DNA from: Bradyrhizobium sp. sBnM-33
GTDB lineage: Bacteria; Pseudomonadota; Alphaproteobacteria; Rhizobiales; Xanthobacteraceae
Assembly: GCF_032917945.1 (NCBI RefSeq)
Contig: NZ_CP136624.1
Location: 2,976,001 to 3,040,000 of the forward strand
Direction of reading: 5' to 3'
Length of the DNA: 64,000 bases
Shown here: positions 1,999-9,248 of the stretch, in pieces
Layout: each line of letters begins with the position of its first letter
How positions within the stretch are numbered: position 1 is the first letter of the stretch
Notes under the pieces: model-generated
Databases searched by the model: none
What the model saw: only the letters and a program-made list of their open reading frames with translations
Told to the model about the DNA's origin: nothing
Translations under genes and position numbers: made by a program

Positions 1999-2802
1999 AT
2001 GCTCAATCAACTCTCGCCGGCAACGGCCGGTCTCTTGCTGGGATTGACAGTGATGATGACGATGCCCGCTACAGCCGATGCCCTCAAGGATGAGATCGCG
2101 CCGACCGGCAAGCTGCGGGTGGCGATCGCGATCAGTCCGGCCGGTGGCGCGTTCTGGTCGACGAAGACCGCGACCGGTTATGCTGGCGTGCCGGTCGATC
2201 TCGGCAAGGCGATGGCGGAGCAACTTGGCGTGCCCGTCGAATATGTCGCGCACAACAATTCCGGGCAGATCGTCGATGCGGCGTCGAAGGGCACCTGGGA
2301 TGTCACCTTCCTGCCGAAAGATCCGGAGCGAGAGGGCAGGATGTCGTTCGGCCCGATCTACGAGGTTGCGGACGCGACCTACATCGTCAAGCCAGGCTCG
2401 ACGGTCACAAATTTCGCAACGCTCGACCAACCTGGGATCAAGGTCGCTGCCGTGAACAACACTACCACGATGCGCGGCGCGATCGCGCATTTGAAGAACG
2501 CCAAGGTCACGGGGTACCAGACCTATGACGAAATCTTCGGCCTGCTCAAGAATGGCGAGATCGATGCGTTTGCGCTGTCGCGCGACCAGCTCAACGCCAT
2601 GGCGAAGCAGATTCCGGGTACCCGCGTGCTGGATGAAACTTTCAAGCAAACGGTCACGGCCGTAGCGGTGCCACCCAATCGTCCGCTGTCGCTGGCGTTT
2701 GCGGTCAGGTTTCTGAACGAGGCGATCGCCAACGGCACGCTGCGCAAGGCCTACGACAACAACGGCCTGAAGGACCGGCCGGTGCGGACGCAGACGAAAT
2801 AG
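1999..2802 (+). CDS. ABC transporter substrate-binding protein, family 3 (amino-acid type)
   Basis: 267 residues with a signal peptide (about 1-27). The mature chain has the order typical of family 3 solute-binding proteins: GKLRVAI start strand, GVPVDLGKAMAEQLGVPVEYV, WDVTFLPKDPERE in the first lobe, then a crossing segment and IDAFALSRDQL in the second lobe. It should bind a small polar solute, probably an amino acid or derivative, in the periplasm. No permease or ATPase gene lies next to it, so it is an orphan receptor or feeds a transporter encoded elsewhere. A palindromic repeat follows. Confidence 0.8.
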   Translation: MLNQLSPATAGLLLGLTVMMTMPATADALKDEIAPTGKLRVAIAISPAGGAFWSTKTATGYAGVPVDLGKAMAEQLGVPVEYVAHNNSGQIVDAASKGTWDVTFLPKDPEREGRMSFGPIYEVADATYIVKPGSTVTNFATLDQPGIKVAAVNNTTTMRGAIAHLKNAKVTGYQTYDEIFGLLKNGEIDAFALSRDQLNAMAKQIPGTRVLDETFKQTVTAVAVPPNRPLSLAFAVRFLNEAIANGTLRKAYDNNGLKDRPVRTQTK

Positions 2803-2960: not shown

Positions 2961-2974
2961 TGTGCAACTGCACA
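2961..2974. promoter_or_regulatory. Dyad TGTGCA-N2-TGCACA upstream of sigma-54 promoter
   Basis: Perfect 6-bp arms spaced by AC, centred about 100 bp upstream of the -24 element at 3070. That is a usual distance for an enhancer-binding protein. The orientation is opposite to the NtrC consensus (GCAC...GTGC), so the binding protein is unknown. Confidence 0.3.
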
Positions 2975-3069
2975 AATACAGGGCATCAGTCCCAATCAGG
3001 GCAACCCTGCAATAGGACCATAACCACGTAGAAATACGCGTTTTTTAAGCCCGCGGCCCAATTTCCGGT

Positions 3070-3085
3070 TGGCACATCGATTGCT
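3070..3085 (+). promoter_or_regulatory. Sigma-54 (RpoN) -24/-12 promoter
   Basis: TGGCACATCGATTGCT matches the sigma-54 consensus TGGCAC-N5-TTGC(A/T) at every conserved position, with GG and GC at exact spacing. Transcription would begin near 3096-3098, giving a leader of about 285 nt before the FNT channel gene at 3382. In alphaproteobacteria such promoters on nitrogen genes are driven by NtrC-type activators (established knowledge); here that is inferred from the downstream FNT gene. Confidence 0.75.
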
Positions 3086-3132
3086 TAATCCTGTCTCAGT
3101 CAATGACGACTGCCGTCCGTTAGGAGTGCCAA

Positions 3133-3181
3133 GGCCAGCGTTGGCCGAAGGCCGTTGGGATCAAGCGGCCTCACGTGAGGC
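3133..3181 (+). promoter_or_regulatory. Structured mRNA leader, possible ANTAR (NasT-type) attenuator
   Basis: Stem GGCC/GGCC (3133-3136, 3143-3146) encloses the six-base loop AGCGTT, with A at loop position 1 and G at position 4 as in ANTAR-protein RNA targets. It is followed by stem GGCCG/CGGCC (3150-3154, 3166-3170), which is mutually exclusive with a perfect 14-bp palindrome GCCTCACGTGAGGC (3168-3181). Alternative folds in the leader of a sigma-54-driven nitrite-type channel gene fit nitrate/nitrite antitermination of NasT type. No U-tract terminator was recognised, so this remains a proposal. Confidence 0.35.
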
Positions 3182-3381
3182 GCTTCGAGCAGTCTTCGGG
3201 ACCACCTCACGATAGCTCGCGCATCCTAAGTCCCTGATCGGGCCTGACCTGCGTCGTTCTGTGCCGTTCAAAGGCGGCGCGGGATTTGTCGCGCACGAGG
3301 ACGGCAAGATTTTTCACTCAATCGGTGCACGGCTGCGCAGCATCCGGCGCGCTTCAACCTTGTCTCGAAAGGGGAACTGGA

Positions 3382-4233
3382 ATGGCCTATCTCGCGCCTT
3401 CGGAATTCGTGACCAAGATGGTCGACGCCGGAGAATCCAAAATCTTCATGTCGACGCGGGATACGGTCATCCGCGCCTACATGGCCGGAGCGATCCTCGC
3501 GCTTGCCGCGGCGTTTGCGATCACCATCAACGTGCAGACCGGCGTGCCGATCGTCGGCGCCGCGCTGTTCCCGGTCGGCTTCTGCATGCTGTATCTGCTC
3601 GGCTTCGACCTGCTCACCGGCGTGTTCGTACTTGCACCGTTGGCACTGATCGACAAGCGCCCGGGCGTGACGCTCGGTGGCGTGCTGCGCAACTGGGGTC
3701 TCGTTTTCATCGGCAATTTCGCCGGCGCGTTCACGGTGGCGGTGATGATGGCGATCGTGTTCACCTTCGGCTGGTCTCAGCCGCCGGACAAGGTCGGCCA
3801 GGTGATCGGCACCATCGGCGAAAGCCGCACCGTCGGCTACGCCGATCATGGCGCGGCCGGCATGCTGACGCTGTTCATCCGCGGCATGCTCTGCAACTGG
3901 ATGGTCTCGGCCGGCGTTGTGGGCGCGATGATCTCCACGCACGTCAGCGGCAAGGTGATCGCAATGTGGATGCCGATCATGCTGTTCTTCTTCATGACCT
4001 TCGAGCATTCCATCGTGAACATGTTCCTGTTCCCGTCCGGCCTGCTGCTCGGCGGCAAGTTCACCTGGTGGGACTACATCTTCTGGAACGAGATTCCGAC
4101 CGTCGTCGGCAACCTCGTCGGCGGCCTCGCCTTTACCGGGCTGACGCTGTACGCGACCCACGTCAAGACCGGTCCGTCGCGCAACGCGTCGGCTGCGGCA
4201 TCTTCGCGATCGTCCTCGCGCATTGCCGCTTGA
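3382..4233 (+). CDS. Formate/nitrite transporter family channel
   Basis: 283 residues. The ATG at 3382 follows a purine-rich GGGGAA; an upstream in-frame extension has no such site. Six hydrophobic segments are visible, as in the pentameric FNT channels (FocA, NirC). Two family signatures are present: RGMLCNWMVSAGV, and FEHSIVNM with the conserved pore histidine. The C-terminus ends in a Ser/Ala-rich tail that could be a regulatory site. The sigma-54 promoter and structured leader upstream point to nitrite rather than formate, by inference. A kinase/phosphatase fusion follows 61 bp downstream in the same direction. Confidence 0.9.
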   Translation: MAYLAPSEFVTKMVDAGESKIFMSTRDTVIRAYMAGAILALAAAFAITINVQTGVPIVGAALFPVGFCMLYLLGFDLLTGVFVLAPLALIDKRPGVTLGGVLRNWGLVFIGNFAGAFTVAVMMAIVFTFGWSQPPDKVGQVIGTIGESRTVGYADHGAAGMLTLFIRGMLCNWMVSAGVVGAMISTHVSGKVIAMWMPIMLFFFMTFEHSIVNMFLFPSGLLLGGKFTWWDYIFWNEIPTVVGNLVGGLAFTGLTLYATHVKTGPSRNASAAASSRSSSRIAA

Positions 4234-4294: not shown

Positions 4295-6031
4295 ATGCCG
4301 CGCGAGCTGAAAATATCGGTCGGACAATTTTCCGATAAGGGAGCTAAGGAAACCAACCAGGATTTCCATGGCGTCCTGATCCCGGACGAGCCGCTGCTCA
4401 GCCTCAAGGGCATTTCCATCGTGCTGGCCGACGGCATCAGCAGCAGCAAGGTCAGCCGGGTCGCCGCGGAATCGGCGGTCAAGGGGTTTTTGACAGACTA
4501 TTACTGCACCTCGGAATCCTGGTCGGTGCGCACCTCGGCGCAGCGCGTGCTGGAGGCGACCAATTCCTGGCTGCATTCGCAGACGCGCAGCCAGTATGCC
4601 TATGACAGGGACCGCGGTTACGTCTGTACGCTCTCCGCCATGGTCATCAAGTCGACCACGGCGCATCTCTTTCACATCGGCGATTCCCGCATCTATCGTC
4701 TCTCCGGCAGCACGCTGGAGCAACTGACCAACGACCACCGCATCGTCATCTCCTCGCAGCAGAGTTATCTCGGCCGGGCGCTCGGTGTAAATCCGCAAAT
4801 CGAGATCGATTACCAGATGCTGCGGCTCGAGCCGGGCGACGTCTTTGTGCTCGCGACCGACGGCATCTACGAGCATCTTAGCGCCCGCCGCATTGCAAAG
4901 GCGGTGAACGAAGGCGGCGCCGATCTCGACGCGGCCGCGAAGGCGATTGTCGACCAGGCTTTTGAAGCTGGCAGCAAGGACAATCTCACCGTCCAGATCG
5001 TTCGCGTCGACGAAGTGCCCGACGGCGCCGCCAGCGAAGTGTTCGCGCAGCCGCATGAATTGCCGCTGCCGCCGCTCCTGGAGGCGCGGGCGGTGTTCGA
5101 CGGCTACCGGATCGTTCGCGAGCTGCACGGCTCCAGCCGCAGCCACATCTATCTGGCCGTCGATATCGAAACCGACGCCGTGGTCACCATCAAGATTCCG
5201 TCGATCGATTTGCGCGACGATCCCGCTTACCTGAAGCGGTTCATGATGGAGGAGTGGGTGGCGCGGCGCATCGACAGCCCGCATGTGCTGAAACCCTGCC
5301 TGCTGCAGCGCAAGCGCAACTTCCTCTATGTCGCGACCGAATACATCGACGGCCAGACGCTGACGCAATGGATGATCGATAATCCAAAACCAAGCCTGGA
5401 AACCGTGCGCGGCATCGTCGAACAGATCGCCAAGGGGCTGCGCGCCTTCCACCGCAAGGAGATGCTGCACCAGGACGTCAGGCCCGACAACATCATGATC
5501 GACGCTACGGGTACGTTGAAGATCATCGATTTCGGCTCGACGAAAATCACCGGTGTCGTCGAGGCCGAGCCATCAGGCATTCGCAATGACATTCTCGGTA
5601 CCCAGCAATACACCGCGCCCGAATATTTCCTCGGCGAGCCGGCGACGACACGCTCGGACCTGTTTTCACTCGGCGTCATCACCTATCAGATGCTGACCGG
5701 AAAACTACCCTACGGCGCGCAGATCGCAAAGGCGCGGACCAGGTCGCAATTCAACAAGCTCGTCTACCAGCCGGCGTCCCATGGCGACCGCGAGATGCCG
5801 CAATGGATCGACGGCACGCTGGAGAAGGCCGTGCACCCCAATCCCTACAAGCGTTATGACAGTTTCTCGGAATTCTTGTTCGACCTGCGCCATCCCAATG
5901 CGAACTATCTCTCGACGTCACGGACCCCGCTGATCGAGCGCAATCCGCTGCTGTTCTGGAAGAGTACGACCGTCGTGCTGGCGCTCGCGGTGATCGTGCT
6001 GCTGGCGATGCAGCACGGGATGCATCGGTAG
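4295..6031 (+). CDS. PP2C phosphatase-Ser/Thr kinase fusion with C-terminal TM anchor
   Basis: 578 residues. Residues 1 to about 245 are a PP2C phosphatase with the metal-binding motifs ETNQDFHG, VLADGISSS, HIGDSRIYRLSG, LATDGIYEHL and SKDNLTVQIV. Residues about 265-525 are a Hanks-type kinase: VTIK lysine (K300), HQDVRPDN catalytic loop (D394, N399), DFG (D412), TAPEYF, DLFSLGVITYQMLTG. The glycine-rich loop is degenerate (HGSSRSH instead of GxGxxG) and HRD reads HQD. A single TM helix (about 553-572) ends the protein, so both domains face the cytoplasm. Position after the FNT channel suggests it controls nitrite transport or assimilation by reversible phosphorylation (inference). Confidence 0.93.
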   Translation: MPRELKISVGQFSDKGAKETNQDFHGVLIPDEPLLSLKGISIVLADGISSSKVSRVAAESAVKGFLTDYYCTSESWSVRTSAQRVLEATNSWLHSQTRSQYAYDRDRGYVCTLSAMVIKSTTAHLFHIGDSRIYRLSGSTLEQLTNDHRIVISSQQSYLGRALGVNPQIEIDYQMLRLEPGDVFVLATDGIYEHLSARRIAKAVNEGGADLDAAAKAIVDQAFEAGSKDNLTVQIVRVDEVPDGAASEVFAQPHELPLPPLLEARAVFDGYRIVRELHGSSRSHIYLAVDIETDAVVTIKIPSIDLRDDPAYLKRFMMEEWVARRIDSPHVLKPCLLQRKRNFLYVATEYIDGQTLTQWMIDNPKPSLETVRGIVEQIAKGLRAFHRKEMLHQDVRPDNIMIDATGTLKIIDFGSTKITGVVEAEPSGIRNDILGTQQYTAPEYFLGEPATTRSDLFSLGVITYQMLTGKLPYGAQIAKARTRSQFNKLVYQPASHGDREMPQWIDGTLEKAVHPNPYKRYDSFSEFLFDLRHPNANYLSTSRTPLIERNPLLFWKSTTVVLALAVIVLLAMQHGMHR

Positions 6032-8416: not shown

Positions 8417-8594
8417 TCACATCAGCCCCTGTCCGGCGACGCCATGCAATATCGACGCCAGAGCCGGGCCGGCCGCCTCTAAAACTGGCACGTGGCTTGC
8501 TGTACAAATGACCGACGCACAGGCATTGGGCGGCGGCGCCGTAGGTCGTCCTTGCCTGGGCAAAGGCGTTTTGGGGTTCGAGGGAAGGGGCCAT

Positions 8595-9248
8595 ATGGCA
8601 AAGACCACACTGACCATCTCCAGCAAGAACTACTCGTCCTGGTCGCTGCGCGGCTGGCTGCTGGCGAAATTCTCCGGCCTCGAGTTCGAGGAGGTCATCA
8701 CCGCTCCCGACGATGCCTCGGCGCGGGCGGAAATCCTGCTGCTGTCGTCATCGATCCTGGTGCCGTGCCTGCGCCATGAGGGGGCCACCGTCTGGGATAC
8801 GCTGGCGATCGCGGAGTATCTCAACGAGGTTATGCCGGACGCCGGCCTGTTGCCGGCCGACCGCATCCGGCGCGCGCATTGCCGCTCGATTTGCGGCGAA
8901 ATCCATTCCGGCTTCACCACGCTGCGCGCCTCGCTGCCGGTTAACCTGAAGGGCCATTTCCCGGGCTTCAAGATCTGGTCGCGCGCGCAAGCCGACATCG
9001 ACCGGGTCTGCACCATCTGGCGCGAATGCCTCGCGGAGTCAGGCGGACCGTTCCTGTTCGGTGAACGCACCATGGCGGATGCGATGTACGCGCCCGTCGT
9101 CACCCGTTTCATCACCTATGACGTCAAGCTCGAACCCGCCCTTGCGGCCTACGCCAGTACCGTCATGGCGATGCCCGAGATGCAGCAATGGATCGAGGCT
9201 GCCAAGGGCGAGCCCGCCGATATCGAAGAACTCGAGGTCGAATATTAG
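8595..9248 (+). CDS. Glutathione S-transferase family protein
   Basis: 217 residues. The ATG at 8595 sits after an AGGGAAGGGG ribosome-binding site; the longer frame to 8508 is not needed. The N-terminal thioredoxin-like domain starts KTTLTISSKNYSSWSLRGW, with SSWS in the place of the catalytic Ser/Tyr region. The VPCLRHEGATVWDTLAIAEYL segment holds the cis-Pro and glutathione-contact region. An all-helical C-terminal domain follows, with ERTMADAMYAPVVTRF. Probably a cytosolic detoxification or isomerase-type GST; the substrate is unknown. Confidence 0.88.
   Translation: MAKTTLTISSKNYSSWSLRGWLLAKFSGLEFEEVITAPDDASARAEILLLSSSILVPCLRHEGATVWDTLAIAEYLNEVMPDAGLLPADRIRRAHCRSICGEIHSGFTTLRASLPVNLKGHFPGFKIWSRAQADIDRVCTIWRECLAESGGPFLFGERTMADAMYAPVVTRFITYDVKLEPALAAYASTVMAMPEMQQWIEAAKGEPADIEELEVEY

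Follow-up and report, generated by a model that had tools for sequence, protein, structure and literature searches.

A sigma-54 promoter and a dual-hexaloop leader RNA predicted to set nitrogen control on an FNT channel and PP2C/kinase gene pair in Bradyrhizobium

When a membrane channel and a signalling protein are encoded side by side, the question arises of what conditions call for the two together. The window analysed here, a stretch of 64,000 nucleotides from Bradyrhizobium sp. sBnM-33, carries such a pair: a gene for an FNT-family channel of 283 residues (3382-4233, + strand) and its downstream partner, a gene for a 578-residue fusion of a PP2C phosphatase and a Ser/Thr kinase (4295-6031, + strand). 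Reading from sequence, we consider it likely that the two form a nitrogen-controlled, nitrate-inducible transcription unit. A preliminary description of this DNA had proposed two layers of nitrogen control on the channel and the kinase, one at initiation and one in the leader RNA, and the promoter, the NtrC-type site and the hexaloops (six-nucleotide loops with A at position 1 and G at position 4, A1/G4) described below support that proposal.

The channel protein belongs to the FNT family by its match to PF01226 (210.6 bits) and falls below the NCBIfam equivalog cut-offs of both FocA (formate) and NirC (nitrite). FNT matches were found in 89 of 98 same-genus genomes. For the leader counts, 75 same-genus loci were taken (L003-L077, the window's own included), with about 80% identity or more; relatives of 41-45% identity were excluded. 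The kinase match is present at all 75 loci and, at the 71 where the distance was measurable, lies on the FNT strand, 24-266 nt (median 70) past the last aligned FNT residue. A gene for an ABC-type binding protein lies upstream in the window (1999-2802) and was detected within the fetched flank at 23 of the 75 loci; the FNT promoter is therefore the probable beginning of the unit. Inverted-repeat, REP-like DNA surrounds GAAGCATCGAGCCCGGAATCC at about 2830-2935, and some relatives, L011 and L017 among them, have similar stretches 5' of their promoter.

The promoter is a predicted sigma-54 -24/-12 element, TTGGCACATCGATTGCT, at 3069-3085 (+ strand). It had been noticed earlier as a complete match to the RpoN consensus; the site, TGGCACATCGATTGCT, is indeed present at 3070-3085, but together with the preceding T it agrees at 12 of the 13 informative positions of YTGGCACGN4TTGCW, with one A for G. 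The element is conserved at all 75 same-genus loci, where no other GG-N10-GC site in the 450 nt preceding the FNT gene scores higher. Against the same consensus it scores 10, 11, 12 and 13 of 13 at 4, 25, 44 and 2 loci, respectively, and just 1 of 73 control segments reaches 10/13. Two matches to TGGCAYRN4TTGCW occur in the whole window, versus 0.08 expected, and a search for a sigma-70 promoter at 3060-3400 found none. The distance from the -12 to the ATG varies from 203 to 324 nt. The other -24/-12 element of the window, CTGGCACGTGGCTTGCT (8485-8501, + strand), matches at 13/13 and stands just 5' of an ORF (8508-9248) that reads like a glutathione-S-transferase-type protein.

Mutant data from another strain bear on this promoter. 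In rpoN mutants of Bradyrhizobium sp. DOA9, the orthologous fnt (BRADOA9_v1_41483) and prkC (41482) are down (PMC13207237), and this, with the conservation at 75 of 75 loci, upholds the earlier claim of an RpoN promoter before the FNT gene. The paper also reports, for its smaller, plasmid-RpoN motif set, a C before the GG of the -24, the same change that we find in clade B. The promoter positions differ: the DOA9 sigma-54 site proposed there for fnt/prkC, CGGCAGGCCGCCCGC, lies at -88 to -74 from the ATG (our L039/L140), whereas the conserved -24/-12 begins at -263, 175 bp further up. The DOA9 stretch that holds CGGCAGGCCGCCCGC folds into a leader hairpin (-17.1 kcal/mol). This suggests that the published promoter position falls inside the leader, where it could mislead reporter or EMSA work.

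Upstream of the promoter, the preliminary description had picked out a dyad, TGTGCA-AC-TGCACA, at an enhancer-like distance. The dyad is present at 2961-2974, once in the window (0.13 matches expected with one mismatch allowed), and is kept about 100 bp 5' of the -24 in many clade-A relatives and, in other clades, as TTGTGC-N3-GCACAA. Its description can be refined, as within this upstream activator region it overlaps a predicted NtrC-type site, TGCAC-AAATACA-GGGCA (2969-2985, + strand; form YGCAC-N7-G[TG]GCA). We take this 17-mer to resemble the NtrC consensus TGCAC-N7-GTGCA. A related consensus for NtrC is found in PMC5424462. In the -160 to -40 region the best 17-mer scores at least 9/10 in 60 of 74 upstreams and in 0 of 73 control segments, a count that is descriptive because the pattern was picked after inspecting the sequences; in a few of the 60, the best match sits away from the dyad.

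Transcription from this promoter would begin at about 3096, 12 nt past the C of the -12, and the predicted leader RNA (3096-3381, + strand) is then 286 nt long, in line with the earlier figure of about 285 nt; the start is placed from the position of the -24/-12. The key RNA element of this leader is a predicted dual hexaloop, its first hairpin starting at the putative transcription start. This hairpin, P1 (CAGTC-AATGAC-GACTG, 3097-3112, + strand), had been missed, and the A1/G4 stem with loop AGCGTT that had been taken as the leader's ANTAR-type element stands as the second one, P2 (GGCC-AGCGTT-GGCC, 3133-3146, + strand; loop 3137-3142). Both have the form of an ANTAR dual hexaloop, that is, two 6-nt loops with A1 and G4 on stems of at least three pairs. 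With stems of at least four Watson-Crick pairs they are the window's only A1/G4 hexaloop hairpin pair within 60 nt, on either strand. Among dinucleotide shuffles, two such hairpins appeared in the first 90 nt in 0 of 2000, and 7 of 2000 had at least two over the full 286 nt. The two are separated by 20 nt, longer than the 5-12 nt of eut-type targets, and a small hairpin, TCC-GTTA-GGA (3116-3125, + strand), lies inside this linker. P2 is framed by an outer stem, GCC/GGC (3128-3130/3150-3152, + strand), and followed by a hairpin that we call H4 (AAGCG-G-CCTC-ACGT-GAGG-CGCTT, 3163-3185, + strand). Rfam gave no match above the gathering score in the window.

The P1 core, GTCAAYG[AT]NGAC, is found within 60 nt of the promoter at 75 of 75 loci, 28-30 nt after the start of the promoter element in 70 and 34-35 nt after it in 5. 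It also occurs at all 33 named Bradyrhizobium loci of a wider 80-locus set, some genomes of which are shared with the 75. Searched across the genome by itself, the core is no commoner than chance (13 matches, against 10 for the control), and the composite of sigma-54 element and P1 has a single occurrence in the 9.18-Mb genome. Conservation of the A1/G4 hexaloop among relatives, put forward earlier as a check, was borne out within the window's clade and only partly beyond it. In clade A the P2 loops read AGCGTT, AGTGCT, AGTGTT, AGCGAA, AATGCT and others, with A1 in 36 and G4 in 36 of 38 leaders; in clades B-D, 43 of 59 leaders keep a 6-nt loop with G4 at the P2 position, its first letter being T or G, and the clade B loop is without A1. 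One same-genus leader, L012, has lost parts of both hairpins.

A covariation search, likewise proposed earlier, was run on a clade-A alignment. This holds 38 distinct leaders (41 candidates, 3 identical ones dropped); seven P1-bearing leaders from other genera were excluded from both alignments used here. On the 38, RNAalifold returns P1, the linker hairpin, P2 with its outer stem and part of H4, and favours a neighbouring CCG/CGG pairing over TCC-GTTA-GGA. Our structure of 24 pairs is paired in 89.2% of cells, a share that drops to 42.9% or less on sliding. Its two-sided cells number 28 (shuffles 13.4; 0/500) and its covariation score is 0.140 (shuffles 0.102; 0/500); measures based on pair counts and pair types were not above shuffles (167/500 and 243/500). 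The covariation lies mostly in H4, where two-sided changes affect 4 of 9 pairs (in 11 sequences, for example, CG replaces UA) and 80.1% of cells are paired, and in the P2 outer stem, with two-sided changes in 2 of 38 sequences. The linker hairpin is paired in 100% of lettered cells, with one-sided changes only. P1 and the inner P2 stem show no covariation among the 38 leaders; they hardly vary, and there is therefore little covariation support for pairing there; what speaks for these two stems is the pattern of their loops.

Similar hairpins recur beyond the genus. The 80 named loci include 47 from outside Bradyrhizobium, 46 of these with at least 200 nt upstream, and the 46 hold 24 A1/G4 hexaloop hairpins versus 4.6 expected. 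Such a hairpin occurs at 17 of the 46 loci (4.3 expected) and two or more at 5 (0.3 expected), while 29 have none at the same strictness. A/G is the commonest of the 16 possible loop letter pairs at these loci, the next reaching 13. In L171 and L185 (Rhodopseudomonas and Pseudolabrys MAGs), tandem hexaloops 5 nt apart lie just past -24/-12 elements that score 13/13 and 12/13. Methylobacillus L165 carries a terminator of 20 bp with seven T, and this overlaps the second of its hexaloop stems. Long hairpins before U-runs, as folded by RNAfold, include the hexaloop 3' arm in Ramlibacter L146, Polaromonas L149 and Methylobacillus L166, where the hexaloops were read by eye with a stem containing one G-U pair; the terminator scanner found no match in L149.

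A candidate reader of these loops is encoded elsewhere in the genome. There, a REC-ANTAR protein gene overlaps a gene of the NMT1_2 family and is followed by nirA, which is the order nasT-nasS-nirA. The nirA leader of the same genome carries CTGGCACGCAACTTGTA, with no GC at -12 (the -12 box reads TTGTA or TTGAA, not TTGC), and a single hexaloop, CAGC-AACGAA-GCTG; its DNA was found in 49 of 60 genomes, in some as pieces only. A narK-like gene, whose 249.5 bits fall short of the TIGR00886 cut-off, has a -24/-12 element that matches at 13/13 and, on a stem of 3 pairs, the hexaloop CTC-AACGAC-GAG, a stem which in relatives extends to 5 pairs, GTCTC/GAGAC; this leader was found in 15 of 60 genomes. 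About 240 bp above the narK-like gene's 13/13 element (L207:1325-1341) lies a GTTGTGCACAAC dyad (L207:1080-1091). The genome encodes a second ANTAR protein (L002:1075-1740), which from its context we presume to be AmiR-like. Its gene lies between two genes resembling those for ABC-type amide/urea-binding proteins.

We propose a model in which nitrogen scarcity leads to activation of sigma-54 polymerase from the NtrC-type site about 100 bp upstream and transcription would begin at about 3096, a step that is well supported. The dual hexaloop, with P1 at +2 and P2 at +38, would be the first RNA made and, judging by motif conservation, is predicted to be bound by NasT. Nitrate or nitrite would release NasT, the product of the gene overlapping nasS, from NasS. 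NasT on P1/P2 may then keep the nascent leader readthrough-competent into fnt and the kinase gene, and without NasT transcription would stop within the leader. We infer this termination step for the Bradyrhizobium leader, as the scan turned up no terminator-like site in the window leader and matched in 6 of 75 same-genus leaders, at differing places; nor does a second hairpin overlap an intrinsic terminator in the window leader, as it does in the usual ANTAR target. RNA-seq of a nasT deletion in B. diazoefficiens lists no FNT or PP2C/kinase gene (PMC6759348). This is weak but real counter-evidence, because the cells were given ammonia and organic nitrogen (PMC6759348), a supply under which an NtrC promoter should be off.

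How could a leader of this kind switch between states? The preliminary description had offered a stem at 3150-3170 that excludes a perfect 14-bp palindrome at 3168-3181. Both are present as written, but the switch between them is not conserved: of the 38 leaders in the clade-A alignment, only that of the window strain has the C (column 68) that completes the 5-bp stem and, with it, the full stem, and we rejected the switch for that reason. The palindrome is a hairpin, part of H4, that relatives maintain by two-sided changes. A different pairing would involve P1 itself. A segment that we call anti-P1, CAGTCTTCGGGAC (3190-3202, + strand), is complementary to P1 with internal loops, weakly so in the window strain. 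Without NasT, P1 could pair with this segment about 90 nt downstream and close a multi-hairpin domain; NasT would capture P1 as it emerges and block that pairing, so that the regulated step is the capture of P1 rather than a contest between P2 and a terminator. We regard this as possible, though on balance we lean against it.

Several measurements speak for the pairing. Of 107 distinct leaders with P1, 97 have their best anti-P1 at a distance of 78-95 nt past it, the pairing has a probability of at least 0.5 in 19 of the 27 leaders folded, and duplex energies of -14.5 to -23.2 kcal/mol, against control means of -6.3 to -7.4 kcal/mol, exceed the controls in all clades. Across 59 clade B-D leaders the helix has 89.8% of cells paired (at most 55.8% when slid) and 5 two-sided cells versus 1.2 in shuffles (13/500). 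However, anti-P1 was selected as the best complement, and this selection favours the pairing. In the same clades the sixth loop position, which varies, stays unpaired in 42 of 59 leaders, pairs with a two-sided change number 1 (shuffles 0.7; 281/500) and additional pair types 9 (shuffles 9.3; 478/500), and the covariation score is matched in 36 of 500 shuffles; RNAalifold there gives P1 only, not the longer helix. Clade A shows no covariation for the pairing, and the window strain prefers the P1 hairpin (0.90 versus 0.03). Partner choice is also at odds with it, since the own-clade anti-P1 is the best partner only for clades C and D: clade B P1 pairs better with the anti-P1 of clades C and D than it does within clade B, and for the P1 of clade A, too, C and D supply the better partners. 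The pairing is a lead. The fuller claim would make the Bradyrhizobium leaders an ANTAR variant that lacks a terminator. Its switch would be P1 itself, the recruitment hairpin with which the sigma-54 transcript opens, and the choice of P1 between NasT and an anti-P1 about 90 nt downstream would gate the nitrite channel and the PP2C/kinase signalling protein together. This fuller claim seems to us rather doubtful. Segments resembling anti-P1 5' of P1 were tried and rejected in two other leaders: that of nirA was promising in the window strain but is not conserved, and that of narK sits at or before the predicted start site.

Other readings of the same features place the control elsewhere. NasT might act on translation, with binding to P1/P2 unmasking a Shine-Dalgarno sequence otherwise covered by the segment just 3' of anti-P1, and in clade B the segment GATTCCC-AAG-GCTTC can indeed pair with GAAGC-AAAA-GGAAC before the start codon. 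Such pairing would span 100-200 nt and ranks in the top 5 of 100 shuffles in only 9 of 95 leaders, which are themselves related, and we think it unlikely that translation is the regulated step. It is also conceivable that the sigma-54/NtrC layer alone is real and the leader hairpins are structural or incidental. RpoN dependence and an activator site require no RNA layer, and the leader's first 125 nt fold with no unusual stability (z -1.22). Against this stand the keeping of A1 and G4 while other loop positions vary, the enrichment of hexaloops in other genera and the near-fixed spacing from promoter to P1, and together they leave it quite improbable that the hairpins are without a regulatory role. 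That the leader is read by the AmiR-like protein instead of NasT is very unlikely in our view: the genome does encode this second ANTAR protein, but the gene context of the FNT family is one of nitrite assimilation, and the nirA leader beside nasTS carries the same type of loop.

The joining of sigma-54/NtrC initiation to ANTAR attenuation is already known for nitrate assimilation, in Paracoccus and in Klebsiella, where nasF has an Ntr/sigma-54 promoter. The Klebsiella nasF operon leader with NasR is a case of nitrate-responsive ANTAR control of a nitrogen-assimilation leader below general nitrogen control (PMC3369931, PMC5424462), and the locus studied here would resemble it. NasR, however, is a sensor and ANTAR protein fused, whereas Bradyrhizobium NasT has a separate NasS, the gene pair under control is another, and no conserved terminator was found in the Bradyrhizobium fnt leaders. 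The Paracoccus denitrificans nasABGHC system offers NasT readthrough (predicted here), an NtrC layer and a nitrite transporter, NasH (PMC5424462). There the transporter is inside the reductase operon and the tested NtrC site lies before nasT, whereas the Bradyrhizobium FNT gene stands behind a predicted promoter and leader of its own, with a PP2C/kinase gene as its partner.

Closer to home, NasT of B. diazoefficiens acts on nos and nap, and NasT hairpins have been predicted at nirA, coxS, narK and bjgb (PMC6759348). The fnt leader, with its predicted NasT-interaction hairpin, would join these as a target of the same regulator in the same genus; it differs in the dual hexaloop of the window's clade, and the FNT-kinase operon is absent from the text and tables of PMC6759348. 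Two A1/G4 hexaloops are also found in the Enterococcus faecalis eut leaders read by EutV (PMC3369931, PMC8934654), and, as in eut, the second stem of L146, L149, L165 and L166 shares sequence with a terminator hairpin. The long linker and the scarcity of terminator matches set the Bradyrhizobium leaders apart; in eut, lengthening the linker to 14 nt cut induction (PMC3369931). What is new is such predicted control on a separate FNT-kinase unit, conserved through the genus and recurring in other genera. The open-licence literature yielded no report of ANTAR control of an FNT-kinase pair, and PMC3369931 names nitrate and nitrite transporters among the genes after its predicted ANTAR RNAs. If the model is true, nitrate-gated antitermination would govern how much of a phosphatase/kinase signalling protein is made, along with the channel, and such control would span Bradyrhizobium and several other proteobacterial genera. 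The leader also provides a conserved, testable RNA for NasT in a nitrogen-fixing genus.

Last is the matter of what the channel carries. The earlier description as a nitrite channel is sound as to the FNT family and gains from gene context, although the protein scores below both equivalog cut-offs given above. Neighbouring nirD and nirA genes favour nitrite as the substrate. At 17 of 108 loci (L085-L192), no more than about 130 nt separate the end of a nirD-like match from the FNT start; at two more the distance is about 1 kb, and L134 has a weak match. Two of these nirD-like genes were confirmed by HMM. In eight genomes with a second FNT (about 43% identity), the nirA leader sequence lies just 5' of this gene and the nirA start just 3' of it. 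Seven such second FNT genes were collected as loci (L078-L084, about 43% identical), each with a nirA-type NasT leader before it and nirA after it.
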